A stretch of DNA of 64,000 nucleotides from Acidobacteriota bacterium. GTDB taxonomy: Bacteria > Acidobacteriota > Thermoanaerobaculia > UBA5066. Below are positions 3,621 through 59,010 of this stretch, one piece after another; the stretch's first letter is position 1, and each line of letters begins with the position of its first letter. The stretch covers positions 62,001 to 126,000 of the forward strand of contig JAKOVQ010000016.1 in the NCBI GenBank assembly GCA_029781975.1. The letters are read 5' to 3'. The position numbers and the translations under genes are program-made. The notes beneath the pieces are model-generated. The model saw only the letters and a list, made by a program, of their open reading frames with translations, was not told the DNA's origin and did not search any database.

Positions 3621-3677
3621 GAAGCGCCCCGGGAGACTAGAATCCCAAGGGCGGGAACCCCCGCCGGAGGACTCGAG

Positions 3678-4619: not shown

Positions 4620-4689
4620 GGGCCCGGGGGAGCCGCGCGGCCGCCCGCCGGACGCGCCTCCCCCCGCGCCCCGCTCCCGCGGAGCAGAC

Positions 4690-5304: not shown

Positions 5305-5334
5305 CCGCCGGCCCCGCGCCGCGGCGCCGGCGGC
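5304..5334 (+). terminator. GC-rich hairpin after udk
   Basis: GCCGCCGGC at 5304-5312 pairs perfectly with GCCGGCGGC at 5326-5334 across a 13-base loop. No T-run follows, so it may be an mRNA 3' stabiliser or a weak terminator rather than a classical intrinsic terminator. Confidence 0.35.
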
Positions 5335-5390
5335 GAACCGACGGATAATCCGCGCACGGCCCCGGCACGGCGGACAGGAAGGAGGCCGTC

Positions 5391-6572
5391 ATGACGATCT
5401 CCATTCGCATGGTCTCCGGCTCCCTGGCCGGACGGGAGTTCTCCTTCGAGAAGGAGCTCGTCCGGGTCGGGGACTCCGCGACCGCCGACGTGATCCTCGA
5501 TCCGACGCAGCCGGACAACGGCGGCGCCCGGGGGCGCGTGATCGAGGTCTCGAGGGAGGGGGCCGGGTACCGGGTCCGTTCGGTCGGCGACCGCGAGCTC
5601 TCGGCGCAGGGCCAGGCTCCCATCGACCGTCTCGTGATGGCGGGGAGCGAGGTCCGCTTCGGCGCCTGGGGTCCGATCTTCACCGTCGGCCCCGCCGTCC
5701 CGGCGGCCTCCGCGACGGCGCCGGCCCCCGTCCTCGGCGACACGACGGCCTCGGTGACGGCCGTCTCTCCGCCGACCCTGACCATGGGGGCGCCGTGGGA
5801 GGAGCTCGACGCCCGCCCCGCCGACGACAGCCAGGCGCGCCGCCCGCGCGACGTGAGGGAGCTGGCGGGCAAGCCGGGCGAGAAGCCGGTGGGCGAGAAG
5901 ACGGTCTACCGGATGATCGAGGACGCCCTCGGGAGGGCGCGCGGCACCGCCGAGGCCGGGTTCGTCCAGAAGTCGACCGTCTTCGTCCGCGAGCTCGTCT
6001 CCGACACCATCAGGAGCTCCACGCGCTCCCTGAAGATCGGCCTCGCCCTCACCGGCGCGGCCCTCGTCGTCCTCGCGGCGGCCCTCGCCTACAACGTCTG
6101 GGCGACGCGGCGGACGGTGGTGGCGGTCACGAAGGCCGCGGACGAAGGGGTCGCCAGCGTCCGGCAGGAGATGGGGACCCGGCTCGGCGAGATGAAGAGC
6201 GAGCGCGACGCGCTGGCGGCCGAGGCGGACGACCTGGGGAAGAAGATCGGCGCCCTCGAGCAGAGCGCCGACGCCAGCCAGGCCGCCGTCGACGAGCTGA
6301 AGGGGCGCCTGCGCGACGCCGAGGCGCGCCGCAAGGAGCTGGAGGCGCGCCTCGCGCGCTCCCTCGCCGCGCTCGAGGCCGACCGGAACGCGCTCGGCCA
6401 GGAGCTCGAGCGGCTCAAGCGCGAGCAGGCCGCCGACCGGCAGCGGCAGGCGGCCGAGCTGGAGCGGCTCCGGCGCGAGCAGGCCGCCGCGGGCGCGGCG
6501 GCTCCCGCCCCCTCCGCGCCGGCCCCCGAGCCGGTCCAGGCGACGCCGGCCCCGGCTCCGCCGCCGCGATGA
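5391..6572 (+). CDS. FHA-like domain membrane protein with long coiled coil
   Basis: 393 residues with a clear GGAAGGAGG ribosome-binding site. Residues ~1-105 resemble a forkhead-associated fold (GREFSFEKELVRVGDSATADV and later AGSEVRFGAWGPIFTVG). The canonical SxxH is not evident, so phosphothreonine binding is uncertain. Residues ~110-205 are a Pro/Ala-rich linker and helical region. A single transmembrane helix lies at ~208-228 (IGLALTGAALVVLAAALAY). From ~235 to 375 there is a long heptad-like coiled coil rich in Glu, Arg and Leu, then a Pro/Ala tail. It overlaps the downstream kinase gene by ATGA, so the two products are probably made together and interact. I infer that it is a membrane-anchored scaffold or substrate of that kinase. 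Confidence 0.75.
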   Translation: MTISIRMVSGSLAGREFSFEKELVRVGDSATADVILDPTQPDNGGARGRVIEVSREGAGYRVRSVGDRELSAQGQAPIDRLVMAGSEVRFGAWGPIFTVGPAVPAASATAPAPVLGDTTASVTAVSPPTLTMGAPWEELDARPADDSQARRPRDVRELAGKPGEKPVGEKTVYRMIEDALGRARGTAEAGFVQKSTVFVRELVSDTIRSSTRSLKIGLALTGAALVVLAAALAYNVWATRRTVVAVTKAADEGVASVRQEMGTRLGEMKSERDALAAEADDLGKKIGALEQSADASQAAVDELKGRLRDAEARRKELEARLARSLAALEADRNALGQELERLKREQAADRQRQAAELERLRREQAAAGAAAPAPSAPAPEPVQATPAPAPPPR

Positions 6573-7747
6573 GCCGGGCGCTCCCGCGGCACCTCATCCC
6601 GGGGTTCGACATCATGGAGCGCCTCGGGAGGGGGGGCGCCGCGGGAGTCTTCCGCGCCTACCGCGAGGTCGACGGCCTGGAGGTCGCCCTCAAGGTGATG
6701 AACATCGGGGCGCTCGACCCGGAGTTCCGGCCGGAGGAGCGGTTCCGCCGGGAGTCCGAGATGCTCTGGCGGGTCAGCCACCCCGTCCTCCCGGTGATGT
6801 ACGGCTACGGCGTCACCGACCACCAGTACGCCTGGCTCGCCCTCGAGCTCGTCCACGGCGAGCCGCTCGGGAGCTTCGCCGAGCACCCGGCGATCGAGCT
6901 GATCCACATCTTCATCCGGCTCTCCGAGGCGCTCGCCGAGGTGGCGCAGGAGGGGATCGTCCACCGGGACGTCTCCCCCGACAACATCCTCGTCACCGAG
7001 CGGTTCCGGAGGCTCGCCCCGAAGCTGATCGACTTCGGCGTCGCCAAGGACCTCTTCGCCTCGGCCGCCGGCGGTGGGCTGACGCAGAGCGGGTCGTTCC
7101 TCGGGAAGTTCGCCTACGCCTCGCCCGAGCAGATCGTCGGCCTCCCGCCGGGACAGACTCTCGACTTCCGCTCGGACGTCTACTCGCTCGGGATCACGAT
7201 GTACGAGCTCCTCTCGGGGAGGAAGGCGGTCCAGGGGGAGGGGATGGCGGCGATCGTCGACGCGCACGTCAAGGGGAACATCCCTCCCCTCGTCCTGGCC
7301 CCCGAACGGGGAGGGCCGGCGCCCCGCCTCTCCGCCCTCGTCTCGCGGATGACCGCGCGCCACCGCGAGGAGCGCCCCGCATCGTGGGAGGAGGTGATCG
7401 CCGAGCTCTGGATGTGCCGCGCCGAGCTCGCGCCCCTCTCCGAGACCCTCGCCCGCAAGGGGCTGCCGCGGCGGGCGGCGGAGACCCCACCCTCCCCGAA
7501 GGACCACGGGCCCCAGGCGGAGGCCCGGGAGTCGGCCCCGCCGGCGCCCGTTCCCGCCGCGGCTCTGTCCGGCGGCGCGGGCCCCGGGGTCGACCTGATC
7601 CGGCGGGAGGTGGTCCTCGGGCGCGCCGTCCTCGCCTTCGGCGTCATCGCCTTCCTCGCCTCGCTCGCCTTCGCGGTCCACGTGGTCGTCCGGGCGCCCC
7701 GGCCCGCCCCGCCCCCGACGCCTCTCCCCGCGGCCGCACCGCGCTGA
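6569..7747 (+). CDS. Ser/Thr protein kinase with C-terminal membrane anchor
   Basis: 392 residues. ATG 6569 overlaps the stop of the FHA-like gene (ATGA), indicating translational coupling. Kinase landmarks are in order: glycine loop LGRGGAAGVF (residues 19-28), catalytic lysine in VALKVM (~42), HRDVSPDN catalytic loop, DFGVAK metal site, ASPEQI in the activation segment and a DVYSLGITMYELLSG helix. After the kinase fold (~13-280) comes a Pro/Ala-rich linker, one hydrophobic helix (AVLAFGVIAFLASLAFAVHVVV) and a short proline-rich tail. Unlike the four other kinases in the window it has no propeller or TPR domain. All residues needed for catalysis are present. The probable partner is the FHA-like protein upstream. 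Confidence 0.88.
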   Translation: MSRALPRHLIPGFDIMERLGRGGAAGVFRAYREVDGLEVALKVMNIGALDPEFRPEERFRRESEMLWRVSHPVLPVMYGYGVTDHQYAWLALELVHGEPLGSFAEHPAIELIHIFIRLSEALAEVAQEGIVHRDVSPDNILVTERFRRLAPKLIDFGVAKDLFASAAGGGLTQSGSFLGKFAYASPEQIVGLPPGQTLDFRSDVYSLGITMYELLSGRKAVQGEGMAAIVDAHVKGNIPPLVLAPERGGPAPRLSALVSRMTARHREERPASWEEVIAELWMCRAELAPLSETLARKGLPRRAAETPPSPKDHGPQAEARESAPPAPVPAAALSGGAGPGVDLIRREVVLGRAVLAFGVIAFLASLAFAVHVVVRAPRPAPPPTPLPAAAPR

Positions 7748-7788
7748 GCGGCGAGTCGGGAGGGCCCCGGACCTGCCCCGGGCGGCCT

Positions 7789-9015
7789 TCAGCGCATCTG
7801 GGCCGCCAGGTCGTCCGGGTGCGCCGACCTCAGGCGCGCCTCGGCCTCGGTGACGAGCCCCTTCTTCACCAGGCCGGCGAGCGACTCCTCCATCGTCACC
7901 ATCCCCAGCCGGCGCCCCAGCGTCAGCTCGGAGAGGAGCTGGTGGAGCGTGCCGCGGCGGATGTGCGACCGGATCGAGTCGTTCGCGAGGAGCACCTCCA
8001 CGGCGACGACCCGGCCTGCGCCGTCCTTCCGCGGGACGAGCTGCTGGCAGACGACCGCCGAGAGGGCGAGCGAGAGCTGCTGTCGCACCTGCCCCTGCTG
8101 CTCGGCGGGGAAGACGTCGACGATCCGGTGGACCGTCTGCGGGACGTCGTTCGTGTGGAGCGTCGTCAGGACGAGGTGCCCCGTCTCGGCGGCCGTCAGG
8201 GCCGTCCGGATCGTCTCGAGGTCGCGGACCTCGCCCACCAGGATCACGTCGGGGTCCTGGCGCAGCGCCGAGACGAGCGCCGCCTGGAAGCTCGGCGCGT
8301 CCGACCCGACCTCCACCTGCTCCACGAGCGACGTGCCGTGCCCGTGCTCGTACTCGACCGGGTCCTCGATCGTGACGATGTGGCGCCGCTCGGTCCGGTT
8401 GATCCGGTCGACGAGGGCCGCGAGCGTCGTCGTCTTGCCCGAGCCGGTGGCGCCGGTGACGAGGACGAGCCCGCGCGAGGCGCGCGTCAGGTCGTAGAGC
8501 GCCTCGGGCAGGCCGAGGTCGGCGAGGGTCGGGATCTTCCGCGGCAGGACGCGGATCGCCGCAGCCGCCCCCCGGCGGCTCCTATGGAGGTTGACCCGGA
8601 AGCGGCCGAGGGCGCCGGTCTTCAGCGAGAGGTCGACCGTCCCCTGCTCCTGGTAGCGCCGCCGCCGCTCGGAGGAGAGGGTGGGGGCGAGGAGGTCGAA
8701 GGCCTCGGCCGGGCCGAGCGGCTCGGCGCCCGAGAGGACCGGCTCGAGCTTGCCGTGGAGCCTCAGGGAGGGGGGAGCGCCGGGGACGAGGAGGAGGTCG
8801 GTCCCCCCGCGGCGGACCGTCTCGCCGAGGAGGGTGGCGAGGCGCGCCGGGACGTCGGCCTCGGCCGGCGCGGCGCTCTCGGAGACCGGGGCCAGGGCCG
8901 CCGGGTCCTCGCCGCGCACGACCTCCAGGCTCGGGACCTCGGGCTCCTCCGGGGCTCCGCCCCGGGCCTGGGCGTTGAGCGAGCGGATCAGCCGGTTCAG
9001 GTCGTCCGTTTCCAC
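7789..9015 (-). CDS. pilT: PilT-like twitching-motility ATPase
   Basis: 408 residues, GTG start. It belongs to the type II/IV secretion ATPase superfamily; PilT proteins drive type IV pilus retraction as cytoplasmic hexamers. Visible features are Walker [11 protein letters not shown] (~residue 190), the Asp box [10 protein letters not shown], Walker B-region [12 protein letters not shown] and the His box [11 protein letters not shown]. The last ~60 residues continue as in PilT proper. An extra ~60-residue N-terminal extension rich in Glu, Pro and Ala precedes the PAS-like N domain. Length and motifs favour PilT/PilU over PilB. No other pilus gene is in the window. It is divergent from tyrS, with a TACACT hexamer six bases before the GTG and no Shine-Dalgarno, so a leaderless mRNA is likely. 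Confidence 0.85.
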
Positions 9016-23946: not shown

Positions 23947-26577
23947 TCAGCGAAAGTCGGTGATCATCACCGCGTCACGGGTCACGGTCCCCCGGGCGAC
24001 GAAGAGGACGCTGTCCGACGAGAGGTCGAAGCTCCAGATCGCCTGCTCGAACCGCTCGAGCCTCCTCGGCTCGCCCCGGAGCGGGTAGATCCAGATGTCC
24101 GTCCAGGACGAGACCAGGAGGGCGTCGCCCTCCCGCGTCCACCGGACCTGGCGGCATCCGGCCTGGCGCGAGGCCGCGCTCCAGACCTCCTTCCCTTCGG
24201 CGTCGATGACCTCGATGCGTGTCACGTCGCCGCCGGCGTCCTCCCGGAGGAAGGCGATCCGGTCCCCTGCCGGTGCGTAAACGGGGCCGCGCGCAAGCCC
24301 GGCGGTCAGCTGTCTCGGAGGCCGGCCGTCGGCGAACGCCGCCCAGAGCCTCCGGTCGATCGAGTAGGCGAACGAACCGCCGTCGGGGCTGACGGCGATG
24401 GGCGCGTCGTCGATGCCGCCGACGACGACCTTCCGCTCCCGGCCCCCGGCGTCGGTCACGCACAGCTCGGCTCCCGCGTTCGTGAAGGAGACGTACGCGA
24501 CGCCACCGGAGAACGCCACCGGGTACTCGTCGCGGAACGGACGGCTGAGGAACGGTCGTCTCTGGCTCCCGTCCGCGTTCATGACCCAGAGCGTGGTGGT
24601 GCCGTTCTCGATGGAGGAGAGGACGAGCCGGCCGTCCGGCATCGTCGAGACCCCCGCGACGCCGTCGAAGTGACCGCTCGAGATCCCCTTCGGCGCCCCG
24701 GTCCCGCCGAGGGCCTTTCTCGCGATGTTCACCGTGGCGTCCGCGACGTCGGCCACGAGCCGGGAGCCGTCGGCCGAAACGCTGACCTCGCGGTAGAAGA
24801 GGAGGTCGTTCGTGATCCGCCGCGGCTCGCCGGAGGGGACCGGGATCAGCCAGATCTGGTTCCCCGTCCCCGTCACGGCGTGGACCTCCGCCTCGGTCCT
24901 CGCCCCGATCGCCACGATCCCCTTTCCGTCGGGCAGCCATTGCAGCGCGCTCAGGGAGATCCACCCGGAGCTCGAGAGGAGCGTCTCCCGGCCGCTCTCC
25001 GGGTCGAACCCGACGAGGTCGGCCCGGTCGGGATCCCGGAGCCTCTTCACCGAGACCGCGATCGTCCGCCCGTCGGGAGACCACGAGGGGCGGGTGAAGA
25101 AGATCGGGGCGAAGAGCTCGGGGTATCGCCTCACGGCCAGGGCCCGCTCGCCCGTCCCGTCGAGGTTCGCGACCATCAGGGCGCTCTCGGAAGGCGTCGG
25201 GAACTCCTTCCTGAGCCAGGCCAGCCGCTTCCCGTCGGGAGAGAACGTCGGCCCGCTGTCGACCCCCGAGGCGAGGCGCTGGGGAGGGCCGCCGATCGTC
25301 GAGACGCGATAGAAGGCCCCGCGGGGCTCGGCCGCGCTCGACACGGCGTAGACGATCGAGTTCCCGTCCGGGCTGAAGGCGCACCCCGAGAGCCCCGCCG
25401 GCCGCGGAGGCACGAGCTCGAGCTCCTCGCCGCTGGCGATCTGGCGCAGCCAGAGGCTCTCGCCTCCCGTGTCGAACCGGGAGTAGACGACGAAGCGGCC
25501 GTCCGGGGAGATCGCGACGTCGACGAGGTTCCCCTTGGCGGTGATCCGCCGGAAGGCGGCCTCCCGAGGGACGGGCGCGGAGCGCGTGCCCCGCCACACG
25601 ACGGCCGCGCCGGCCGCGAGGATGATGAGGAACGCCCCGAGCGCGGGAAGGGCCCACCCGGGCCGTGGCCGGCGCCCGCTTGCGGAGGCCGGCGCGATCC
25701 CGGAGCCGAGCTCGCGGAGCAGCGCGCGCAGGTCGAGCGCCAGGTCCTTCGCGGTCTGATAGCGCTCGTCCGGAGACTTCGCCAGGGCCTTCTGGACGAT
25801 CCGCTGGAGCTCGACCGGCGCGCCGGGCGCGAGCTCGCCCACGGGGCGCGGCGTCTCGTGAAGGGTCTTGTGCAGCGTCTCGATCGGGCCGTCCGCCCGG
25901 AAGGCGCGCACGCCGGTGACCATCTCGTAGAGGATGCAGCCGAGCGAGAAGATGTCGGACCGCGCGTCGACCGGCTCCCCGCCCGCTTGCTCGGGGGACA
26001 TGTAGCCGACCGTTCCGAGGACGGTGAGGGACTGGGTGGCCGCCCTCGGGAGCGTCGGGGCCGCCGTGTCGAAGGAGAAGCTCCTCTCGGGCTGGAGCTT
26101 GGCCAGGCCGAAGTCGAGGACCTTCGCGTAGCCGTCCGGCGAGACCATCACGTTCTCGGGCTTCAGGTCCCGGTGGACGACGCCCGCGCCGTGCGCCGCG
26201 GAGATCGCGTCGGCGACCTGCGCCGTCAGCGCGAGGGCGCGCCCGAGCGGGAGCCGCCGGGCGGCGAGGAGCTGGCGAAGGGTCGATCCCTCGATCTTCT
26301 CCATCGCGATGAAGTGGACTCCGTCCTCCTCGCCGATCTGGTAGATCGAGACGATGTGCGGGTGGTTGAGCGCCGCCGCCGCGCGCGCCTCCTGCTCGAA
26401 GCGCGCGAGCCGGCTCGGGTCCGAGACGGCGCCTGGCGCGAGGACCTTGATCGCGACGTGCCGGTCGAGCGAGGGGTCGACGGCGTCGTAGACGACGCCC
26501 ATCCCGCCGCTGCCGAGCAGCGACACGACTCGGTAGGGACCGAGACTCCCGCCCACCAGGTCGTCCGTTCCGCGCAT
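23947..26577 (-). CDS. Ser/Thr protein kinase with extracytoplasmic TolB/WD40-like propeller
   Basis: 876 residues, with GAGGAGAGG before the ATG. The kinase domain (~10-275) has the glycine loop LLGSGGMGVVYDAVD, HRDLKPEN catalytic loop, DFGLAKL and MSPEQAGGE. All catalytic residues are intact. A single transmembrane helix (WALPALGAFLIILAAGAAVVW, ~residues 300-322) follows. The rest is a TolB/PD40-type beta-propeller with repeated SPDGRFVVYSR, SPDGNSIVYAV, SPDGKRLAW and SPDGRTIAV motifs, predicted to lie outside the cytoplasmic membrane. This architecture is characteristic of Acidobacteriota and relatives; the propeller presumably senses a ligand. A TACACT hexamer lies 20 bases before the start, so the mRNA is probably short-leadered. 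Confidence 0.93.
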   Translation of the reverse strand: MRGTDDLVGGSLGPYRVVSLLGSGGMGVVYDAVDPSLDRHVAIKVLAPGAVSDPSRLARFEQEARAAAALNHPHIVSIYQIGEEDGVHFIAMEKIEGSTLRQLLAARRLPLGRALALTAQVADAISAAHGAGVVHRDLKPENVMVSPDGYAKVLDFGLAKLQPERSFSFDTAAPTLPRAATQSLTVLGTVGYMSPEQAGGEPVDARSDIFSLGCILYEMVTGVRAFRADGPIETLHKTLHETPRPVGELAPGAPVELQRIVQKALAKSPDERYQTAKDLALDLRALLRELGSGIAPASASGRRPRPGWALPALGAFLIILAAGAAVVWRGTRSAPVPREAAFRRITAKGNLVDVAISPDGRFVVYSRFDTGGESLWLRQIASGEELELVPPRPAGLSGCAFSPDGNSIVYAVSSAAEPRGAFYRVSTIGGPPQRLASGVDSGPTFSPDGKRLAWLRKEFPTPSESALMVANLDGTGERALAVRRYPELFAPIFFTRPSWSPDGRTIAVSVKRLRDPDRADLVGFDPESGRETLLSSSGWISLSALQWLPDGKGIVAIGARTEAEVHAVTGTGNQIWLIPVPSGEPRRITNDLLFYREVSVSADGSRLVADVADATVNIARKALGGTGAPKGISSGHFDGVAGVSTMPDGRLVLSSIENGTTTLWVMNADGSQRRPFLSRPFRDEYPVAFSGGVAYVSFTNAGAELCVTDAGGRERKVVVGGIDDAPIAVSPDGGSFAYSIDRRLWAAFADGRPPRQLTAGLARGPVYAPAGDRIAFLREDAGGDVTRIEVIDAEGKEVWSAASRQAGCRQVRWTREGDALLVSSWTDIWIYPLRGEPRRLERFEQAIWSFDLSSDSVLFVARGTVTRDAVMITDFR

Positions 26578-29475: not shown

Positions 29476-30051
29476 CTAGCCGCCCGCTTTCGATCCGCGC
29501 TCCTCGAAGAGGACCGACGCGCCCGTGACGGTCAGGTCGAAGTCGAGGTGCCGGACGGCGCCCGGGGCGCCGGCGGCGATCGAGGAGAAGACCTGGCGCG
29601 CGATCCGTTCGGCCTCGCGCCGCCCGTAGGAGCCGCCGGGAGCGGAGGTCCCTTCCTGCCGCGGCTCGTCCGGCAGCTCGACGCCGGCCTCGGTCCGCAG
29701 GCGGGCGCGTCGAAAGGCGTCCGGCAGCGGCGGGTCCGAGGGGACCAGAAAGCGGCCGTTCAGCTCCCCCGTCTGCCCCGGCACGAGGGGTCCGAAGGGG
29801 GTGACGGTCTCCTGGGTCGCGGAGAAGCAGCGGATGGCGATCCGGGCCTCGAGGATCCAGCTCAGCCGGCCCGCCGCGCCCTTCGCGTGCTCGGCGAAGC
29901 GAACCGGGTAGCCCGCCGCCCCGTCGGCGGCCACGTCCACGGCGGTCGGACACGCCGTGCAGAGGTAGAGGCGCGCGCCGGGCTCTCCGTCGATCCGCGC
30001 GCCGCACGCGGGGCAGACGAGGGCGAGGAGGCGGGGCTCCGGCGCCGTCAT
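29476..30051 (-). CDS. Zinc-ribbon protein, third member of a paralogous trio
   Basis: 191 residues. ATG 30051 overlaps the upstream stop as ATGA. The N-terminus has two CxxC pairs (CPACGARIDGEPGARLYLCTAC, residues ~13-34) predicted to bind zinc. The middle part repeats the pattern of its two upstream paralogues: a GYPVRFAEHAKG strand followed by LSWILEARIAIRCFSATQ. A C-terminal ~100 residues of beta/alpha pattern contains LDFDLTVTGASVLFEERG. Unlike the other two it has no membrane helix, so it may be the soluble subunit of a complex. Function unknown. Confidence 0.7.
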   Translation of the reverse strand: MTAPEPRLLALVCPACGARIDGEPGARLYLCTACPTAVDVAADGAAGYPVRFAEHAKGAAGRLSWILEARIAIRCFSATQETVTPFGPLVPGQTGELNGRFLVPSDPPLPDAFRRARLRTEAGVELPDEPRQEGTSAPGGSYGRREAERIARQVFSSIAAGAPGAVRHLDFDLTVTGASVLFEERGSKAGG

Positions 30052-31139
30052 ACGGGCCTCGGACGGAGGCGCGGGTCGGCCTCCACCTCCGCGCGCTCGG
30101 CGGCCACCTGCTGGTCGTGGTCGTCTTCCAGGTCGAACAGCGCGGCGCCCCGGTGGACGCAGTACCCCTCCTCGACCTCGGCCCCGTAGCGGAGGGCCCG
30201 GTATCCCGCCAGCGCGCTCTTCACGCCGAGGAATCCGATTCCGAGCGCGAGGGCTCCGCCCAGGCCGATCGTGAAGAGGAACCCCTGCAGGTCGTCCGAC
30301 GATTCGGCCGCCAGCCGGAAGGCCAGGAGCACCGTCCACGCCGCGGCGATGAGGAGCCACGCCCCGAGCGGGGTGAGCGCCGCGAAGAAGAGGGCGCGGG
30401 AGAGGTCGCTCCCCGGCGCCCTCCCGTAGGCGACCGCGCCGTCCCGGGCGTCGAGGACGACGGCGTACTCCCTCCCCGCGACCTGGTAGGGGACGCGCCA
30501 GACGGGGTAGCGGACGATCGTCCTCCGCTCGCCGAGAAGGTCGAGGCGCTCCCCGGTCACCGTGTCGAGCTCCTCCCGGACGCGAGCCTTCTCGACCCAG
30601 GCCCCGCGCGCGGCCTCCTCGAGCGCGTCGACGCTCTCGGTGATCGGGACCACCTCTCCCCCGGCCGCCGCCTTCCCCTCGTACCAGGCCCCCGTCGGGA
30701 CGCCCCCGAGGGGCGGGAGCCGGGTGACCCCCACCTCGCCGGTCGCGAAGAGGGGGAAGGTCTCGTCGTGGGGGGTCAGGACGTGACGCTCCTCGTCCGA
30801 CATGGTCTCCTTGCCGTCGCGGTCCTTTGCCTTCTTCGTGCCGAAGATCCAGCCGACGAGGTCGCCTTCGATCCGGGCGAACGGGAGATAGAGGAGCTGC
30901 GGGGCGCCGAGCGTGGCCGCCTGCGCGAGGAACGCGCGCTTGCGCCGCCCCCGGAGGAAGGCCCGGGCCGACCGCGTGGCTTCCGCCGCGCCGAGGACGG
31001 GGAGGACGAGACGTTCGGGCGTGCCGGCGGGCACCAGGTGGAGCAGCGTCCTGCACGAAGGGCAGGTCCCCGTACGCGCGCCGGTCGGCGCCGCGTCGTT
31101 CGCCCCGCACTGGGGACAGCTGAGGGCCTGCGTTCCCAT
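30048..31139 (-). CDS. Zinc-ribbon membrane protein, second member of trio
   Basis: 363 residues. It overlaps both neighbours (TGATG at its start, ATGA at its end). The N-terminal zinc ribbon is CPQCGANDAAPTGARTGTCPSC. A soluble middle domain includes LLYLPFARIEGDLVGWIFG and RYPVWRVPYQVAGREYAVVLDARDG. It ends with two transmembrane helices (FFAALTPLGAWLLIAAAWTVLL; FLFTIGLGGALALGIGFLG) and a charged cytoplasmic tail. The LPF/YPVW plus strand pattern recurs in the other two trio proteins. No enzymatic motif recognised. Confidence 0.7.
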   Translation of the reverse strand: MGTQALSCPQCGANDAAPTGARTGTCPSCRTLLHLVPAGTPERLVLPVLGAAEATRSARAFLRGRRKRAFLAQAATLGAPQLLYLPFARIEGDLVGWIFGTKKAKDRDGKETMSDEERHVLTPHDETFPLFATGEVGVTRLPPLGGVPTGAWYEGKAAAGGEVVPITESVDALEEAARGAWVEKARVREELDTVTGERLDLLGERRTIVRYPVWRVPYQVAGREYAVVLDARDGAVAYGRAPGSDLSRALFFAALTPLGAWLLIAAAWTVLLAFRLAAESSDDLQGFLFTIGLGGALALGIGFLGVKSALAGYRALRYGAEVEEGYCVHRGAALFDLEDDHDQQVAAERAEVEADPRLRPRPV

Positions 31140-31903
31140 CAGAAGAGCTTCGCCACGAGCCAGGCGACCGCTGCGCTCAGGGGGAGGATGGCCGCGTAGG
31201 CGATCAGGGTCGCCGCGGCGGGCGCGGGCTGTCCCGTCGCGACGCCGGTGAACGAGAAGCCGGGGAGCACGTAGGCGAGGAGGGTCGCGACCGCGAGGAG
31301 GTTGAAGGGCCACTCGGCCTTCTTCGGGAACGGGCCCGGCCGGACCTCGCCGCGCGCGGCGTCGACCGCCGCGGTGTACGCCATGCCGCGGAAGGAGTAG
31401 GTGAAGCGGTAGAAGGGGACGTGGACGAGGGCCAGCTCCAGGACCTCCTCACCCTCCAGCTCCGCCCGGAACGCGGCCGCGGACACGGTCGGCTGCGGGA
31501 AGTCGGACGCGCCGGGGAAGGGGTGCGTGTCTCCCGTCAGCCGGATCATCGAGGCGGGCGGGATCAGCCGTCGCCTCGCCTCGAGCACGGCCGCGTCGTC
31601 GGCCCGGCGCTCGTGGGTCCGCTCCCCGCCCTTTCCGCGGGTCCGTGCGAACCAGACCGGGAGCCACTCGAGCCGCGGCGTTCCGATCGCGGCGTCCGGG
31701 AGGCCGACGACCGGCTCGCTGCCGCTCATCCAGCGGAGCAGGGACCGGAGCGCCGCCGCGGGGTCGAGCGACGGGCGGACGGCGTAGCGCGCCATGACGG
31801 CGCCCTCCTCCACGAGGAGGGGCGAGCGGCAGTAGGGACAGGAAGCCCACGTGCTCCCGAGGGTCCGGGAGACCTCGCCGCCGCAGACAGGGCATTTCTC
31901 CAT
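31139..31903 (-). CDS. Zinc-ribbon membrane protein, first member of trio
   Basis: 254 residues. It starts 12 bases after the lipocalin stop and shares TGATG with the next gene. The zinc ribbon CPVCGGEVSRTLGSTWASCPYC occupies residues 4-25. A middle domain with RLEWLPVWFARTRG and LALVHVPFYRFTYSFRGMAYTAAVDA corresponds to the LPF-type repeats of the second member. It ends in two membrane helices (FNLLAVATLLAYVLPGF; TLIAYAAILPLSAAVAWLVAKLF). Together with the next two genes it forms a tightly coupled unit whose products probably assemble at the membrane. Function unknown. Confidence 0.7.
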   Translation of the reverse strand: MEKCPVCGGEVSRTLGSTWASCPYCRSPLLVEEGAVMARYAVRPSLDPAAALRSLLRWMSGSEPVVGLPDAAIGTPRLEWLPVWFARTRGKGGERTHERRADDAAVLEARRRLIPPASMIRLTGDTHPFPGASDFPQPTVSAAAFRAELEGEEVLELALVHVPFYRFTYSFRGMAYTAAVDAARGEVRPGPFPKKAEWPFNLLAVATLLAYVLPGFSFTGVATGQPAPAAATLIAYAAILPLSAAVAWLVAKLF

Positions 31904-31915
31904 CGGGCGGGAATC

Positions 31916-32461
31916 TTACGCAGGCGACGGCGCCTGGAGGGTGCGGACGAGGCGCGACGTCTCGTAGCGCTTGGCGTCGAGGCGCGCGACGATGCCCTGG
32001 TAGGTCGCCTCGTCCATCGTCGGGGTGCGGCTCAGGATCCAGAGGGAGTCGCGGCCCGGGTGGCCGACGACCGCGTACGAGTAGTCCGCCGAAAGGTCGA
32101 TGATCCAGTAGTCCCCCCAGAACGGGCGGAAGAAGCTCACCTCGAGCTTCGCGTTCGTCGTCCGGTCGACCACGCGGGCGCGCCCGAGCGCCGTCTTCTC
32201 CGGCCCGTCGAGCGAGCCCTGGCGGCAGCGGTTGAGGACGTCGACGTCCCCGTTCTCGCGGAGCGTGTAGGTCGCCGTCGTCGCGGTGCAGCCGCGCTGG
32301 AAGCTCTGCGGGAAGCTGGAGATCTCGTACCAGGTCCCGGCGTAGCGCGAGAGGTCGACGCGCGCGACCGTCTCGAGCGGGGGGAGGCCCAGCCGCTGCG
32401 TCGTGGTGGGCGCGCAGCCCATCGTCAGGAGCGACCAGAGGATGCCGGCGAGGCGCTTCAC
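31916..32461 (-). CDS. blc: Outer-membrane lipoprotein lipocalin
   Basis: 181 residues from GTG 32461. The N-terminus is a lipoprotein signal peptide with lipobox LTMGC (Cys at ~16). The lipocalin core follows: the first GxW block YAGTWYEISSFPQSFQRGC, the second strand NGDVDVLNRC, then YWIIDLSADYSYAVVGHPGRDSLWILSRTP, characteristic of bacterial Blc. Blc-type proteins bind fatty acids or lysophospholipids at the outer membrane. It lies 12 bases upstream of the zinc-ribbon trio, on the same strand, and probably leads that operon. Confidence 0.9.
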   Translation of the reverse strand: MKRLAGILWSLLTMGCAPTTTQRLGLPPLETVARVDLSRYAGTWYEISSFPQSFQRGCTATTATYTLRENGDVDVLNRCRQGSLDGPEKTALGRARVVDRTTNAKLEVSFFRPFWGDYWIIDLSADYSYAVVGHPGRDSLWILSRTPTMDEATYQGIVARLDAKRYETSRLVRTLQAPSPA

Positions 32462-32620: not shown

Positions 32621-35275
32621 ATGGCTCTCGCACCCGGGAGCAGGCTCGGACCGTACGAGGTGCTCTCGCCGATCGGCGCGGGAGGGATGGGCGAGGTCTA
32701 CCGGGCCAGGGACGATCGCCTCGGGAGGACCGTCGCGATCAAGGTGCTGTCGTCTCGCCGCTCCGCGTCGCCCGAGGCCCGCGAGCGCTTCCTGCGCGAG
32801 GCGCGGACGGTCTCGCAGCTCTCCCACCCGCACATCTGCGCCCTCCACGACGTCGGCCGCGAGGGTGACACCGACTTCCTCGTCATGGAGTACCTCGAGG
32901 GCGAGACGCTCGCGGACCGGCTCGAGAAGGGTCCGCTCCCCGCCGGGCTGGTGCTGTCCCTCGGCGCCGAGATCGCCGCGGCGCTCGACCACGCCCACCG
33001 ACACGGGCTCGTTCACCGCGACGTCAAGCCGGGCAACGTCATGCTGACGAAGTCGGGGGTCAAGCTGCTCGACTTCGGCCTGGCCCGGGCCCTCGCCCCG
33101 GCCGGCTCCGCGATCGGGCTGACCGACCTGTCGACGGCCGACCGGCCGCTCACCGGCGACGGCGCCGTCCTCGGAACGTTGCCGTACATGGCGCCGGAGC
33201 AGCTCGAGGGGAAGGCGACGGACGCGCGAACGGACGTCTTCGCCCTGGGCGCGGTCCTCTACGAGATGGCGACGGGCCGGCGGCCCTTCCCGTCGGCCAG
33301 CCAGACGTCCCTGATCTCCGCCATCCTGAGGGACGACCCGCCGGCGATCTCCTCCGTCCGGCCCGAGTCGCCTCCGGCCCTGGACCGCGTCGTCGGGGCC
33401 TGCCTGGCCAAGGACCCCGACGACCGCTGGCAGAGCGCCGCGGACCTGGCGCGGGAGCTGCGGTGGATCGCCGACGGCCCGACCTCCGGCGGGCAGGCTC
33501 CCGCGGCCGCACCCCGGAAACGGCGCGAGCTCCTCGCGTGGGGAGTGGCCGCGACGGCGATCCTCGCGGCCGCGCTCGCCGCCCTCCTGCCGCGCCACGC
33601 TCCGCCGAGACCGGGACCGCTGCGGTTCAAGATCCTGGCGCCGCCCGGCCAGAGCTTCTTCCCCATCGCGCTGCTCTCCCCGGACGCGTCACGCCTTCTC
33701 GTCCTCCTCCGGGACGACGGAGGGAAGAACGTCCTCGCGGTGAGACCCCTCGACAGCCTCGAGGTCCGCCTGCTGCCGGGCACCGGCGACGCCCGCGGAG
33801 GCTTCTGGTCGCCGGACGGACGCGAGGTGGCCTTCTTCGCGGAGGGAAAGCTCAAGCGGATGAGCTCGGACGGCGGCCCCGCGCAGACCCTCTGCGAGAG
33901 CGGCGCCGCTGTGTGGGGTGCGTGGAGCCGCGAAGGGACGATCCTCTTCGAGAAGGAGTTCGGCGGCCCCCTCTTCGCGGTTCCGGCGGCGGGAGGAGCG
34001 CCGCGGCAGCTCTACGCCCCCGGCGCGGCGGGGGAGGACGTCCACCAGAACCAGCCGTGCTTCCTCCCGGACGGGCGGCATTTCGTCTTCCTCGCGAGCA
34101 ACGCCGACTTCACGAGGAAGCGGATCGTCCTCGGCTCGCTCGACTCGAGCGAGGTCCGCCCGCTCTTCCCCTCGGACTCCTCTGCCGTCTACGCCGAGCC
34201 CGGGTACCTGCTCTTCGCGCGGGACGACGCCGTCCTCGCGTGGAGGTTCGATCCCCACGGCCTCCGGCTCGTCGGCGAGCCGGTCCCGGCGTTCTCGGGC
34301 GTCCACTGGGAGAGGGCCGACAACTACCTCTCGCTCTCGGCGGCCGGCAACCGCGTCGCGTACGGCTCCTGGGCGCTGCGGCGCCGGCTCGCCTGGGTCG
34401 ACCGGAAGGGACGCGAGCTGGGCAGCCTCGGCGAGGTCGGAGGGTACACCGACGTCCGGATCTCGCCGGACGGCCGAAGGGTGGCGGTCGCCCTCCGCGA
34501 CCCGTCCCACAACCACAACGAGGACATCTGGGTCCTCGACGTCTCGCGCGGGACCGCCGTGCGGGTCACCGCCTCGCCGATGGACGACTTCAACCCGGCG
34601 TGGTTCCCGGACGGCGACCGGATCGCCTACGTCTCCGACCACTTCGGCTTCTACAACCTCTTCGAGCGGCCGGCGGGCGGCGGCCCCGAGAAGGTCCTGG
34701 TCCGGTCGGAGGAGGACAAGACGGTCCCGACCGTCCTCGCCGACGGCCGGCACATCCTGGTCGGCGTCCAGGCGTCCGGCGTCTTCTCCCGGGAGATCGT
34801 CGACGTCGCCGACCCGAGGCGACCCCTTCGCCTGGGCACCGGCTCCGGGTTCTCCGAGGAGCATCCCTCGATCTCCGCCGACGGCCGCTGGTCCGCCTTC
34901 GATTCGATCGAGTCGGGTCAGAGGGAGGTCTACCTGCAGCCGGTCCCCGACGGCCCGAGGCGGCAGGTCTCGATCGGCGGGGGACAGATGCCCGTCTGGA
35001 GACGAGACGGCCGCGAGCTCTTCTACGCGGCCCGGGACGGGACGCTGATGTCGGTCGCCCTCGGTCCGCAGGGAGGCGGGCTGGAGCTCGGCGAGCCGCA
35101 GCCGCTCTTTCCCCTCCAGCTCGACCTGAGCGGCGAGCTGCCGTGGACCCGGCTGCCGTACGACGTCACCCCGGACGGGCAGCGGTTCCTGGTGATCCGT
35201 CGGGCGCGCGGCGTCGAGCCGGACGGCGTCGTCGTCGTCACCGACTGGACCGGGGCGCTCGCGGGCGGACGGTGA
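32621..35275 (+). CDS. Ser/Thr protein kinase with TolB/PD40-like propeller
   Basis: 884 residues with GGGAGGAG eight bases before the ATG. The kinase (~10-275) has IGAGGMGEVYRARD, VAIKVL, HRDVKPGN, DFGLARA and MAPEQLEGKATDARTDVF, so it should be active. A membrane helix (LLAWGVAATAILAAALAALL) lies near residue 305-325. The external ~550 residues form a propeller with SPDASRLLVLL, SPDGREVAFFAEG, ISPDGRRVAVA, WFPDGDRIAYV and ISADGRWSAFDS repeats. The first ~85 coding bases are almost identical to those of the next kinase gene, but the remainder diverges strongly and the output domains differ. Confidence 0.93.
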   Translation: MALAPGSRLGPYEVLSPIGAGGMGEVYRARDDRLGRTVAIKVLSSRRSASPEARERFLREARTVSQLSHPHICALHDVGREGDTDFLVMEYLEGETLADRLEKGPLPAGLVLSLGAEIAAALDHAHRHGLVHRDVKPGNVMLTKSGVKLLDFGLARALAPAGSAIGLTDLSTADRPLTGDGAVLGTLPYMAPEQLEGKATDARTDVFALGAVLYEMATGRRPFPSASQTSLISAILRDDPPAISSVRPESPPALDRVVGACLAKDPDDRWQSAADLARELRWIADGPTSGGQAPAAAPRKRRELLAWGVAATAILAAALAALLPRHAPPRPGPLRFKILAPPGQSFFPIALLSPDASRLLVLLRDDGGKNVLAVRPLDSLEVRLLPGTGDARGGFWSPDGREVAFFAEGKLKRMSSDGGPAQTLCESGAAVWGAWSREGTILFEKEFGGPLFAVPAAGGAPRQLYAPGAAGEDVHQNQPCFLPDGRHFVFLASNADFTRKRIVLGSLDSSEVRPLFPSDSSAVYAEPGYLLFARDDAVLAWRFDPHGLRLVGEPVPAFSGVHWERADNYLSLSAAGNRVAYGSWALRRRLAWVDRKGRELGSLGEVGGYTDVRISPDGRRVAVALRDPSHNHNEDIWVLDVSRGTAVRVTASPMDDFNPAWFPDGDRIAYVSDHFGFYNLFERPAGGGPEKVLVRSEEDKTVPTVLADGRHILVGVQASGVFSREIVDVADPRRPLRLGTGSGFSEEHPSISADGRWSAFDSIESGQREVYLQPVPDGPRRQVSIGGGQMPVWRRDGRELFYAARDGTLMSVALGPQGGGLELGEPQPLFPLQLDLSGELPWTRLPYDVTPDGQRFLVIRRARGVEPDGVVVVTDWTGALAGGR

Positions 35276-35422: not shown

Positions 35423-37843
35423 ATGGCTCTCGCACCCGGGACCAGGCTCGGACCGTACGAGGTCCTCTCGCCGATCGGCGCGGGAGGGATGGGCGAGGTC
35501 TACCGGGCCCGCGACCCCCGCCTGGGCCGTCAGGTCGCGGTGAAGGTCCTTCCGGAGGAGGTGGCCTCGAGCCGGGAGCGGCTTCGCCGCTTCGAGCGGG
35601 AGGCGCAGGCCGCCTCCGGGCTGAACCATCCCAACGTCGTGACGATCCACGACGTGGGGGAGACGGACGGCGTCCCGTGGATCGCGATGGAGCTCGTGGA
35701 GGGCTCGAGCCTGCGCCAGCTGATGGCGGGCGGCGCCCTGCCCCCGAAGCAGGTGCTCTCGGTCGGCGCCCAGCTCGCCGCGGGCCTGGCCAGGGCCCAC
35801 GGCTCGGGCATCGTCCACAGGGACCTCAAGCCCGAGAACGTCATGGTGACGCCGGAAGGCCTCGTCAAGATCCTCGACTTCGGCCTGGCCAAGGCAGCCG
35901 CCGAGCCCTTCGAGGGAACCGAGGCCCCCACGGCCACGCGGCAGACGGGGGCCGGCGTCGTCCTCGGGACCGTCGGCTACATGTCGCCGGAGCAGGCGAC
36001 GGGCCGACCGGTGGATCACCGCTCGGACCAGTTCGCGCTGGGCGCGATCCTCTACGAGATGGCGTCGGGCCGGCGGGCCTTCCGGCGTCCGACGCCGATG
36101 GAGACCCTGACGGCGATCCTGAGGGAGGAGCCCGAGCCCCTCTCGTCCATCCAGCCGGCGACGCCCGCTGCGCTCGCGTCGATCGTGGAGCGTTGCCTCG
36201 CCAAGGAGCCCGACGGGCGCTACCACTCGACGCGGGACCTCGAGCGGGACCTCGCGGAGGTGCGCGACCGCGCGTCGGGCCCTCCTCGACCGACGGCACC
36301 GAACCGGGGCGGCCGGCGCCTGCGCACGGCAGCCCTCCTCGCCGTCCTGGCCCTCGCCGCCGGGGCGCTCGTCGTGGTGCTGCGCGCGCGCGCCAGGTCG
36401 CCGGCGCCAGGCGCCGTCCGGTCGCTCGCCGTCCTGCCGCTCAGGCCGCTCGTCGGCAACGCGGCCGACGAGGCGCTGGGGCTGGGGATCGCGGACACGA
36501 TCATCCGCGGCCTGAGCCGCGCCGGGGCGATTCCCGTCCGGCCGCTCTCGGCGGTCCGCCGCTATTCGACGGGGGACGTGGACGCCGTGTCGGCGGCGAG
36601 GGAGCTCCGGACGGACGCCGTCCTCGAGGGCTCGGTCCAGCGGGCGGGGGGAGAGCTCCGGGTCAGCGTCAACCTCCTGCGGGCCGACGACGGGCGGTCG
36701 ATCTGGACCGAGTCCTTCGACGTCCCGGACACCCAGGTCTTCGAGGTCGAGGACGCGGTCTCCGACGCCGTGGTCAGCCGGCTGCAGCTCCACCTCGAGC
36801 CCGTCCAGCGCGATCGGATGAAGAAGCGCTTCACCGAGGACCCCGAGGCGTACGAGGCCTTCGTCCTCGGGGCGAGCGAGGAAGGCAAGGCCGGGCCCGG
36901 CTGGGGTGCCGAGCACCTCCGCAAGGCAATCGGCAGCTACGAGCGCGCCGTCGCCCTGGACCCTCGCTACGCGCTGGCGCACGCGCGGCTGGCCGGCGCG
37001 TACCTCTGGCGGGACCTCTTCTTCGAGCCCGGCGCGGGCTTCCTGGAGAAGGCGAAGAGCGAGGCGGAGCGGGCCGACCAGCTCGACCCGGAGCTCGCCG
37101 AGACGCACATGGTCCGGTACCAGATCGCCTGGAGCCACTACCAGGGCTTCGACATCGAGGCCGCGCTCCGGGAGCTCCAGGCCGCGCGGAGGCTCGATCC
37201 GCTCGTCGGCACCGACGAGCTGGCGATCCTCTACGCGCACATGGGGCGGACCGCCGCCTTCCGGCGCGAGGTGGCCCGGGGGCTGCAGATCGATCCGTCG
37301 TCGCAGACGACGAGGAGATTCAGCGTCGAAGGGCTCGTCCTGCTCGGGCTCCCGGACGAGGCCCTGGCTCTCGCGCAGCAGCTGGGGATCCCGCTCACGG
37401 AGGCCCGTTTGCCGATGGCTCTCCTCTCGAAGGGGCGGCTCGACGAGGCGCGCGCCGCCACGGAGGAGCTCCTGAAGGAGTCCCCGGGTCAGCACGTCGC
37501 CGTGGCGATGCGGGAGCTGGTCGCGGTCGTCTCGCACGAGCGGCCGGCCGACGAGGCGGCGATCACCCGGGCTCTGGAGAAGGGCAAGCTGCTGCGCGAC
37601 TACCACCACACCCTTTACGCCGTGGCCTGCATCCGGGCGGCGCAGGGCGACGCTCGGGGGGCGGTCGAGATGCTGCGCCGGACGGTCGCCGCGGGGATGC
37701 CGGACCGGACGCTGTTCCTCGTGGATCCCCTCCTCGCGCGCGTGCGCCCCACCGCCGAGTTCGCCGCGTTCGACGCGGAGCTCGAGGGGAGGTTGCGACG
37801 CCTCGAGGACGAGATCCCTGCAGCCGCTCCGCCCCGCCCCTGA
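35423..37843 (+). CDS. Ser/Thr protein kinase with FlgO/TolB-N-like and TPR domains
   Basis: 806 residues. The kinase domain (~10-275) has IGAGGMGEVYRARD, VAVKVL, HRDLKPEN, DFGLAKA and MSPEQATG. A membrane helix is at ~303-324 (TAALLAVLALAAGALVVVL). Next is the domain found between kinases/cyclases and TPRs (RSLAVLPLRPLVGNAADEALGLGIADTIIRGLS ... VRRYS; ~335-445), related to the adenylyl-cyclase-associated TolB-N/FlgO region. The remaining ~340 residues are TPR helices (for example AVALDPRYALAHARLAGAYL). The output side therefore differs from its propeller-bearing neighbour although the 5' end is nearly identical. Substrates unknown. Confidence 0.92.
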   Translation: MALAPGTRLGPYEVLSPIGAGGMGEVYRARDPRLGRQVAVKVLPEEVASSRERLRRFEREAQAASGLNHPNVVTIHDVGETDGVPWIAMELVEGSSLRQLMAGGALPPKQVLSVGAQLAAGLARAHGSGIVHRDLKPENVMVTPEGLVKILDFGLAKAAAEPFEGTEAPTATRQTGAGVVLGTVGYMSPEQATGRPVDHRSDQFALGAILYEMASGRRAFRRPTPMETLTAILREEPEPLSSIQPATPAALASIVERCLAKEPDGRYHSTRDLERDLAEVRDRASGPPRPTAPNRGGRRLRTAALLAVLALAAGALVVVLRARARSPAPGAVRSLAVLPLRPLVGNAADEALGLGIADTIIRGLSRAGAIPVRPLSAVRRYSTGDVDAVSAARELRTDAVLEGSVQRAGGELRVSVNLLRADDGRSIWTESFDVPDTQVFEVEDAVSDAVVSRLQLHLEPVQRDRMKKRFTEDPEAYEAFVLGASEEGKAGPGWGAEHLRKAIGSYERAVALDPRYALAHARLAGAYLWRDLFFEPGAGFLEKAKSEAERADQLDPELAETHMVRYQIAWSHYQGFDIEAALRELQAARRLDPLVGTDELAILYAHMGRTAAFRREVARGLQIDPSSQTTRRFSVEGLVLLGLPDEALALAQQLGIPLTEARLPMALLSKGRLDEARAATEELLKESPGQHVAVAMRELVAVVSHERPADEAAITRALEKGKLLRDYHHTLYAVACIRAAQGDARGAVEMLRRTVAAGMPDRTLFLVDPLLARVRPTAEFAAFDAELEGRLRRLEDEIPAAAPPRP

Positions 37844-56373: not shown

Positions 56374-59010
56374 ATGCCGCTCGCGCCCGGCAGCCGCCTG
56401 GGGCCCTACCAGATCGTCGCGCCGCTCGGCGCGGGGGGGATGGGAGAGGTCTGGCGGGCGCGCGACACGGCGCTCGAGCGCGACGTCGCGCTGAAGGTCC
56501 TCCCCGAGCGGCTCTCCTCGGACCCGGACGCCCTCGAGCGGTTCCAGCGCGAGGCGCGGGTGGTCGCCGCGCTCTCGCACCCCTCGCTCGTCGCCATCCA
56601 CGGCTTCGGCGAGGAGCAGGGCCTTCACTACGCGGTCCTCGAGCTCCTCGACGGCGAGCCGCTGTCGGCCTTCCTCGCGCGCGGCCCGCTCCCCGTCCGC
56701 CGGGCGCTGGAGTGGGCGGTCGAGATCGCGAGCGGCCTGGGCGCGGCCCACGAGAGCGGCGTCGTCCACCGGGACCTGAAGCCAGACAACCTCTTCGTCA
56801 CCCGGGGCGGCCGCGTCAAGGTGCTGGACTTCGGCCTGGCCCGCGACGTCCGCCTCCCCGCGCCGCGGATCACGACGCCCGGCCTCGTCGTCGGGACGGC
56901 GGCGTACATGTCCCCGGAGCAGGTGCAGGGGATCGACGTCGGGGTCGGCTCGGACATCTTCTCGTTCGGGTCGGTCCTCTTCGAGATGCTGACCGGGCAG
57001 AGCCCGTTCGCTCGGGCGACGGCCGCCGAGACGATGACGGCCGTCCTGCGCGACGAGCCCCCGGACCTCCTCGCCCTCCGCCCCCTCCTCCCCCCGGCCC
57101 TCGCCCGGATCGTCCAGCGCTGCCTGGAGAAGCGGCCGGAGGAGCGGTTCCGCTCGGCCGCGGACCTCGCCTTCGCCCTGGCGGCCGTCGTCGACCCGTC
57201 CGCCGCGGGACGGTCGTCGTCGGCCAAGGCCGCCGTGACCGAGGGGCGCTTCCGGCTCCCCCGCTCCCGAAGGCTGCGGGCCGCCCTCGGGGGAGCCGCC
57301 GCCGTCGTCCTCCTCGCCGCCGGGTTCGCAGCGGGCCGGCGGGCGGGGAGTCTCTTCGGACGGGCGGCCGGGGCGCAGGCGCCTCTCGTCCGCCTCGCGC
57401 TCGCGGCGCCGGCGCCGTCCGACCTCGCGCTCGGCGACCAGTTCCCGGCCCTCGCCCTCTCCCCCGACGGCACGCGGCTCGCCTGGGTCGCAAACGTCGG
57501 GGTGACCACCGAGATCCGGCTCCAGTCCCTCGACGCCGGGACGTCGGCGCCGGTCTCCGGGACGGAAGGGGCGGAGGCCCCCTTCTTCTCCCCCGACGGC
57601 GCATGGCTCGGCTACTTCCAGGGAGGCGCCCTCCGGAAGCTGCCGCTCTCCGGAGGGGCGCCGGTGACGATCTGCAAGGCGACGAACCCGCGCGGGGTCT
57701 CGTGGAGGAGCGACGGGACGCTCCTCGTCGTGCCCGGGACCTACGGCGTCGTCTGCGAGGCGACGGCCGAGGGCGGCCCGCTCCGCCCGCTCTCGGCCCT
57801 CGACGCCGAAAGCGGCGAGAGGGCGCACCGCTGGCCCGTCGCCGTGCCGGGGAGCCGTTCGTTCGTCTACGCGGTCGGCCGGGGGAGCTCGTGGGACGAC
57901 GCCGAGATCGTCGCGCAGGGACCCGACGGCGCGAGGAAGCTCCTCGTGAAGGGGGGGACCGATCCCCGCATCCTCCCGTCGGGTCACCTCCTCTGGGCGC
58001 GGCACGGGGCCCTCTTCGCCGCGCCGTTCGACGCGCGGCGGCTCGCGCTGGCGGGCCCGGCGGTCGAGGTCGCCACGGACGTCCTGACGACGGCGAGCGG
58101 CGTGGCACAGGCCGCCGTCTCCCCTCGCGGAGCGCTCCTCGTCGTGCCTGCCGCCGCCGGCGACCGGCGCTCGCTCCTCCTCTGGGCCGACCGGGACGGG
58201 ACGCTCCGCCCCGCGCTCGAGCGGCCCGAGCGGTTCACCGCGCCGCCTCGGCTCTCGCCCGACGGCCGGCGCCTCCTCCTGACGATCGACGAGACCGTCT
58301 GGGTCCACGACCTCTCGCGCGGGACGAGGACCCGCCTGACCACGGGCGCGCGCGCCATCTACCCCGCGTTCGCCGGGGCGGACCGGGTCGTCTTCGCCTC
58401 CGAGCGCGACGGGCCCTGGAGCCTCTACGCCGTCGCCGCCGACGGGAGCGGCGGCGAGACCCCCCTCGGCCCCGCGCCGAAGCCGCGGATCCCGTACGAC
58501 GTCTCGCCGGACGGACGCCTCCTCCTCTACGGCGAGGGGGCGGACGACGCCCTCTTCGTCCGTCCGCTCGACGGGCCGGCGGACGCGGCACGCCCGGTGG
58601 GCGAGGCCGCCGACGCGCAGGAGGCGCGGCTCTCGCCCGACGGGAGGTTCGTCGCCTCCATCTCCACCCGGTCGGGCCGGCCCGAGGTGGTCGTCCGTCC
58701 CGCCGGCGGCGGGACGGGGCGCTGGCAGGTCTCCGCGGACGGCGGCCTCTCGCCCCGCTGGGCTCCGGACGGGCGGACGATCTACTACCGGAACGGGCGG
58801 CGGCTGGTCGCCGTCCCGCTCGTCCCGGGCCGCGGCTTCGACCTCGGTCCGGCCGCGACCGTGCTCGAGGCGCGCTTCACCAGCTTCGAGGTGGGGCGCG
58901 ACGGAAGGTTCCTCCTGGCGGTCCCGCCGGCGGACGAGGGGCGGCTCCCCCTCGCGTGGCTCGACGGATGGCTCGCGGAGGTCAGCCGGCGCGCTCCGCG
59001 GGACCGCTGA
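56374..59010 (+). CDS. Ser/Thr protein kinase with TolB/PD40-like propeller
   Basis: 878 residues. The kinase domain (~10-270) has LGAGGMGEVWRARD, VALKVLPERLS, HRDLKPDN, DFGLARDV and MSPEQVQG. A membrane helix follows (LGGAAAVVLLAAGFAAG, ~305-325). The propeller (~345-870) contains LSPDGTRLAWV, FSPDGAWLGYF, LSPDGRRLLLT, VSPDGRLLLYG and WAPDGRTIYYR repeats. The start MPLAPGSRLGPYQI parallels the MALAPG starts at 32621 and 35423, although the DNA here is more diverged. Its last 29 bases overlap the convergent gene. A short possible DNA-binding protein precedes it. Confidence 0.92.
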   Translation: MPLAPGSRLGPYQIVAPLGAGGMGEVWRARDTALERDVALKVLPERLSSDPDALERFQREARVVAALSHPSLVAIHGFGEEQGLHYAVLELLDGEPLSAFLARGPLPVRRALEWAVEIASGLGAAHESGVVHRDLKPDNLFVTRGGRVKVLDFGLARDVRLPAPRITTPGLVVGTAAYMSPEQVQGIDVGVGSDIFSFGSVLFEMLTGQSPFARATAAETMTAVLRDEPPDLLALRPLLPPALARIVQRCLEKRPEERFRSAADLAFALAAVVDPSAAGRSSSAKAAVTEGRFRLPRSRRLRAALGGAAAVVLLAAGFAAGRRAGSLFGRAAGAQAPLVRLALAAPAPSDLALGDQFPALALSPDGTRLAWVANVGVTTEIRLQSLDAGTSAPVSGTEGAEAPFFSPDGAWLGYFQGGALRKLPLSGGAPVTICKATNPRGVSWRSDGTLLVVPGTYGVVCEATAEGGPLRPLSALDAESGERAHRWPVAVPGSRSFVYAVGRGSSWDDAEIVAQGPDGARKLLVKGGTDPRILPSGHLLWARHGALFAAPFDARRLALAGPAVEVATDVLTTASGVAQAAVSPRGALLVVPAAAGDRRSLLLWADRDGTLRPALERPERFTAPPRLSPDGRRLLLTIDETVWVHDLSRGTRTRLTTGARAIYPAFAGADRVVFASERDGPWSLYAVAADGSGGETPLGPAPKPRIPYDVSPDGRLLLYGEGADDALFVRPLDGPADAARPVGEAADAQEARLSPDGRFVASISTRSGRPEVVVRPAGGGTGRWQVSADGGLSPRWAPDGRTIYYRNGRRLVAVPLVPGRGFDLGPAATVLEARFTSFEVGRDGRFLLAVPPADEGRLPLAWLDGWLAEVSRRAPRDR

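Follow-up and report, generated by a model that had tools for sequence, protein, structure and literature searches.

Three overlapping zinc-ribbon genes in an Acidobacteriota genome are a variant layout of the YdjG/YdjI type

Do a lipocalin gene and three overlapping genes for zinc-ribbon proteins encode one membrane machine, and if so of which kind? The question is raised by a window of 64,000 nucleotides from an Acidobacteriota bacterium (the host, G000), in which open reading frames place the lipocalin and genes A, B and C on the minus strand, transcribed in that order (Table 1). The lipocalin ends at 31916, leaving a 12-base gap to the start of A at 31903, the stop of A and the start of B have one base in common (TGATG), and B runs four bases into C (ATGA). 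On re-reading, the coordinates, strand, junctions and gap given in a first-pass annotation proved exact. The window also contains several large serine/threonine kinase genes whose C-terminal parts are of repeat or sensor type (23947-26577, 32621-35275, 35423-37843 and 56374-59010); one of them begins 160 bases from the lipocalin, upstream and on the opposite strand.

Table 1. Features of the locus, with examples of the partner family G1 from other loci.
Feature	Position	Strand	Remarks or basis
Lipocalin gene, Blc-type	31916-32461	minus	adjoins A upstream; judged outside module
Gene A, 254 aa	31139-31903	minus	zinc ribbon ahead of YdjG-type domain; pair of membrane segments at C-terminus
Gene B, 363 aa	30048-31139	minus	zinc ribbon ahead of YdjG-type domain; pair of membrane segments followed by a tail
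Gene C, 191 aa, soluble	29476-30051	minus	zinc ribbon, then short motifs resembling PFW/PF
Zinc ribbon of A, residues 4-25	31829-31894	minus	sequence; Cys invariant in A-family alignment
Zinc ribbon of B, residues 8-29	31053-31118	minus	sequence and trio comparison
Zinc ribbon of C, residues 13-34	29950-30015	minus	sequence; no variation in the four Cys across 19 C proteins
Membrane segments of A, residues 200-218 and 233-251, predicted	31151-31306	minus	hydropathy
Membrane segments of B, residues 246-264 and 284-302, predicted	30234-30404	minus	hydropathy
G1 examples	L021:3119-3673; L131:3947-4459; others		alignment of G1 family

All three products start with a single CxxC-CxxC ribbon, as had been noticed at first reading (C4/C7/C22/C25 in A, C8/C11/C26/C29 in B and C13/C16/C31/C34 in C). 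Hydropathy likewise agrees with the earlier picture of paired membrane helices in two proteins and a soluble third, finding two segments each in A and B and none in C, except that B does not end with its pair and continues for a tail of about 60 residues. Searches of Pfam, NCBIfam and PDB sequences returned only generic zinc-ribbon matches for A, B and C, those in Pfam and NCBIfam falling below the cut-offs, and AlphaFold models built from two-sequence alignments gave no usable structure (pLDDT 41-42).

The kinship of the three proteins was analysed with profiles from which the ribbon had been trimmed. A and B are recognisable as relatives even as single sequences (E 9e-9), and their trimmed profiles score 124 over 164 columns against a maximum of 14.6 in 40 column shuffles, so that by this comparison the two are paralogues along their whole length. 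The scores of C are lower and its alignments short: 24.7 over 28 columns with A (shuffle maximum 12.6), 24.8 over 17 columns with B (13.9) and 28.3 over only 14 columns with YdjG-type proteins (15.2). One B-versus-C shuffle had scored 126 on smaller alignments; the maximum of 13.9 was obtained with larger alignments and a stricter parser. Where C aligns with B and YdjG the columns are those of a PFW strand motif, and where it aligns with A those of a PF motif further on; the later strand motif flagged in the first-pass annotation is the stretch in which C and B align beyond the ribbon. All three pairs thus exceed every shuffle, as expected if the proteins are mutually similar, and the proposed origin by tandem duplication holds for A and B. 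For C it is less secure: because the matches beyond the ribbon are weak and span so few columns, C is only probably a reduced relative of A and B.

The domain that follows the ribbon places A and B in a known family. A YdjG-type profile, again ribbon-trimmed, scores 73.9 against A and 102.9 against B, with shuffle maxima of 21.3 and 23.2, and on these scores the homology of A and B with YdjG-type proteins extends through this domain. The profile was built from relatives; the link to Bacillus subtilis is drawn instead from gene layout, annotation and published description. In that organism a pair of ribbons, a domain related to YpeB and a membrane segment make up YdjG (PMC11237479), and YdjG and YdjH are required to localise YdjI and PspA at the membrane (PMC8581546). 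Contig C6 of the host itself (L064) carries a Band_7_1 SPFH gene followed by the gene of a two-ribbon protein, a canonical SPFH-YdjG pair. Plasmids of Comamonas, Vibrio, Tsukamurella and Enterococcus encode relatives of this two-ribbon protein 3' of an SPFH gene; the Enterococcus row continues with a TPM gene, which completes the set of parts of B. subtilis ydjGHI. Such pairs, annotated as 'TFIIB-type zinc ribbon-containing protein', occur in many bacteria. DNA binding read from that annotation alone was considered and rejected.

The trio shares with the canonical pairs their domain order and type of partner, but each pair has a single two-ribbon protein of about 350-390 aa where the trio has three one-ribbon proteins. 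With pspA-ydjGHI of B. subtilis it shares the homology of A and B to YdjG-type proteins through ribbon and next domain, the C-terminal membrane segments and, in its closest relatives, linkage to a Band_7_1 SPFH protein that resembles YdjI in its C-terminal ribbons. It differs in that A and B have one ribbon each rather than the two of YdjG-type proteins, in being made of two YdjG-type proteins and a soluble C, in having G1 (described below) in its operons instead of TPM (YdjH) and PspA, and, in the window, in the absence of an adjoining SPFH gene. Neither a TPM (YdjH) nor a PspA gene stood beside any trio whose neighbourhood was read; the PspA gene of the host is at C24:152162, outside the window. 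The first-pass annotation knew no characterised system of this design. In the open-licence literature searched, no account of the three-gene arrangement came up, which bears that out as far as the layout goes, whereas its parts are of the YdjG/YdjI type known from B. subtilis; the trio is a variant layout of that type.

Protein and profile searches of genomes from the same family, class and phylum recovered 22 full A-B-C trios in 21 genomes of the phylum, counting a second set in the host, plus one B-C pair. Every trio member has its ribbon and the order is A-B-C at all 22 loci, so the order is conserved, as the first reading required. Most junctions overlap by a few bases, with exceptions such as a 119-base A-B gap in G051, the gene starts compared being those of the longest plausible frame as chosen by the analyst. 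A broad C profile (E 1e-8 or better) matches 38 of 347 sampled genomes of the phylum, in 29 of 189 genera, the weakest of these matches being fused forms. At six other loci, indeed, one protein of 409-671 aa combines a C half with a ribbon half like that of A/B, a fusion which argues that A/B and C act together, and the fused protein of G019 is encoded directly 3' of an SPFH gene. Three of the fused proteins have N-terminal membrane segments and three do not (L105, L107, L108, L109, L110 and L113). Outside this set, a scan of other genome contigs with A gave one ribbon-level match, on a Pseudobdellovibrionaceae contig (L020) and unrelated beyond the ribbon, and a search for C in 291 genomes of that contig's phylum, run without a positive control, gave none. 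At five loci (L066, L067, L068, L069 and L070) the trio was seen by eye to lie between Mur-ligase-like and long-chain acyl-CoA ligase-like genes, flanks that are suggestive of envelope metabolism.

The proposed partner of the trio is most evident among its closest relatives. In a tree of A the window copy groups with exactly five others (G033, G054, G058, G051 and G024; support 98/96), and in all five the trio ends a five-gene operon, G1-SPFH-A-B-C, whose SPFH protein has a Band_7_1 domain and C-terminal ribbons. G1 is a helical-looking protein of about 160-190 aa with no Pfam match and the motif PGxxGYxxRExRRExD, encoded nearly always directly 5' of the SPFH gene. The distant genome G178 has the order G1-SPFH-A-B up to a contig end, its C being found with a partial B on another contig stretch. 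No SPFH gene lies next to the window trio. The second host trio (L029, G000:C38:290000-306000, 6597-8874, minus strand) is complete and of another clade, its A grouping with those of G011, G010, G026 and G126; it has neither an SPFH nor a lipocalin neighbour, and no SPFH gene was found in the stretches read beside the trios of these four genomes.

Of 13 further genomes examined that carry a trio or a fusion, 10 encode a G1-SPFH pair at another place in the genome; in G026, G103 and G260 an SPFH gene was seen without G1 (in G260 at a contig end). The host pair lies at about 77.8-79.4 kb of C38 (L117, 4849-6413), flanked on both sides by ribbon proteins. The whole row at L117 (G000:C38:73000-84000; 3201-6912, minus strand) consists of a ribbon protein, G1, an SPFH protein with a terminal SHOCT domain and a 541-aa multi-ribbon protein, and is a further arrangement of the same parts. 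Across the phylum sample, Band_7_1 occurs in 33 of the 38 genomes with C against 123 of the 309 others (Fisher p 2e-8, uncorrected for shared ancestry). A lower-scoring SPFH subclass that includes the G1-linked proteins occurs in 28 of 38 against 22 of 309 (p 1e-19, likewise uncorrected and with the class boundary set post hoc). At six loci (L118, L119, L120, L124, L125 and L129) the SPFH gene, mostly with G1, adjoins a gene that appears secA-like from its N-terminus, possibly a link to protein export.

We propose, with confidence that stands at an even balance, that A-B-C is the ribbon/membrane module of an SPFH (flotillin-like) scaffold system related to YdjG-YdjH-YdjI, its partner being supplied in trans in this host. 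A and B would be inner-membrane hairpin proteins with a cytoplasmic, zinc-binding ribbon and a YdjG-type domain, and C a short soluble relative bound to both. The three would jointly tether a cytoplasmic SPFH protein, along with its helical partner G1, to the inner membrane and set its position there, and the SPFH-G1 scaffold may then stabilise or organise the membrane under envelope stress. The host trio, parted from SPFH genes, may act with the G1-SPFH pair of C38 or with the YdjI-like protein of C6; this partner encoded elsewhere is, for the window copy, the weakest step of the explanation. In favour of the proposal are the YdjG profile scores, the YdjG-type genes 3' of SPFH genes, the operon of the clade and that of G178, the 22 loci, the fusions, the occurrence of Band_7_1 and the published roles of YdjG and YdjH (PMC8581546). 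Weighing against it are the want of an SPFH gene beside the window trio, the long branch on which the window A sits (1.45), the weakness of C outside the ribbon and the lack of TPM or PspA beside the trios. A link to envelope stress had been suggested at first reading by way of the lipocalin; it is plausible by way of YdjG homology and SPFH linkage.

More tentatively, and with confidence short of even, the parts may make up a distinct scaffold machine of this phylum that has neither PspA nor TPM alongside, in which G1 and SPFH would work with three YdjG-derived ribbon subunits, arisen by duplication (A/B) and reduction (C), and G1 would replace PspA. An unlikely alternative dispenses with the scaffold altogether: the trio would be a membrane-tethered regulator whose ribbons bind nucleic acid or RNA polymerase while the membrane part senses stress. 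The ribbons do look similar to RNA polymerase subunit P and to ribbons of the TFIIB type, and the ribbon of YdjG has been suggested to bind DNA (PMC9239133), but such matches are generic for zinc ribbons, and SPFH operon linkage, the fusion beside an SPFH gene and co-occurrence all favour partnership with SPFH. Somewhat less probable again is that the window trio is a decaying or repurposed orphan, its ancestral job now falling to the second trio or to the C6 pair. The SPFH neighbours that it lacks are present throughout the rest of its clade, the host also holds a canonical SPFH-YdjG pair besides the second trio, and because its branch is so long the role of the window A may have shifted; against decay, however, none of the three frames is broken, the twelve ribbon cysteines are all present and both overlaps survive.

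There remains the lipocalin. It matches Pfam Lipocalin_2 (E 2e-48) and the NCBIfam Blc model (1.6e-36, below the cut-off of the latter), so its assignment to the family of Blc-type bacterial lipocalins stands. Its lipobox is a degenerate LTMGC where close orthologues have LAGC. Orthologues were found in five genomes (G005, G009 and G004 at 73-76% identity, G057 and G030 at 57-58%), all with other neighbours and none with A, B or C adjacent. In eight trio-bearing relatives (G010, G011, G024, G026, G033, G051, G054 and G058) the whole genome gave no lipocalin match. The genome-search match in G009 (L097, G009:C577, 4509-5039) was counted with one in-frame TGA, probably an effect of match extension, the gene at the locus being open for 176 aa. 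Lipocalin and trio may share a transcript in this one genome, but a single functional operon of the two, serving lipid binding or envelope stress, is accordingly very improbable, since the lipocalin shows no conserved partnership with the trio, and neither the shared strand and short gap nor the lack of a promoter- or terminator-like site before A, weak evidence in a scan that found none anywhere in the region, outweighs this. The lipocalin, which we rejected as a functional partner, is most likely a mere neighbour, and the link to lipid binding is unsupported.

SPFH proteins without a membrane anchor of their own require adaptors. The trio is a natural variant, with two YdjG-type subunits, a soluble third and fusions, and it leads to testable predictions about which parts make contact. 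Its operons point to G1, a helical partner family without a Pfam name, and it extends the YdjG/YdjI branch of the bacterial envelope-stress machinery past the layouts in the papers searched.
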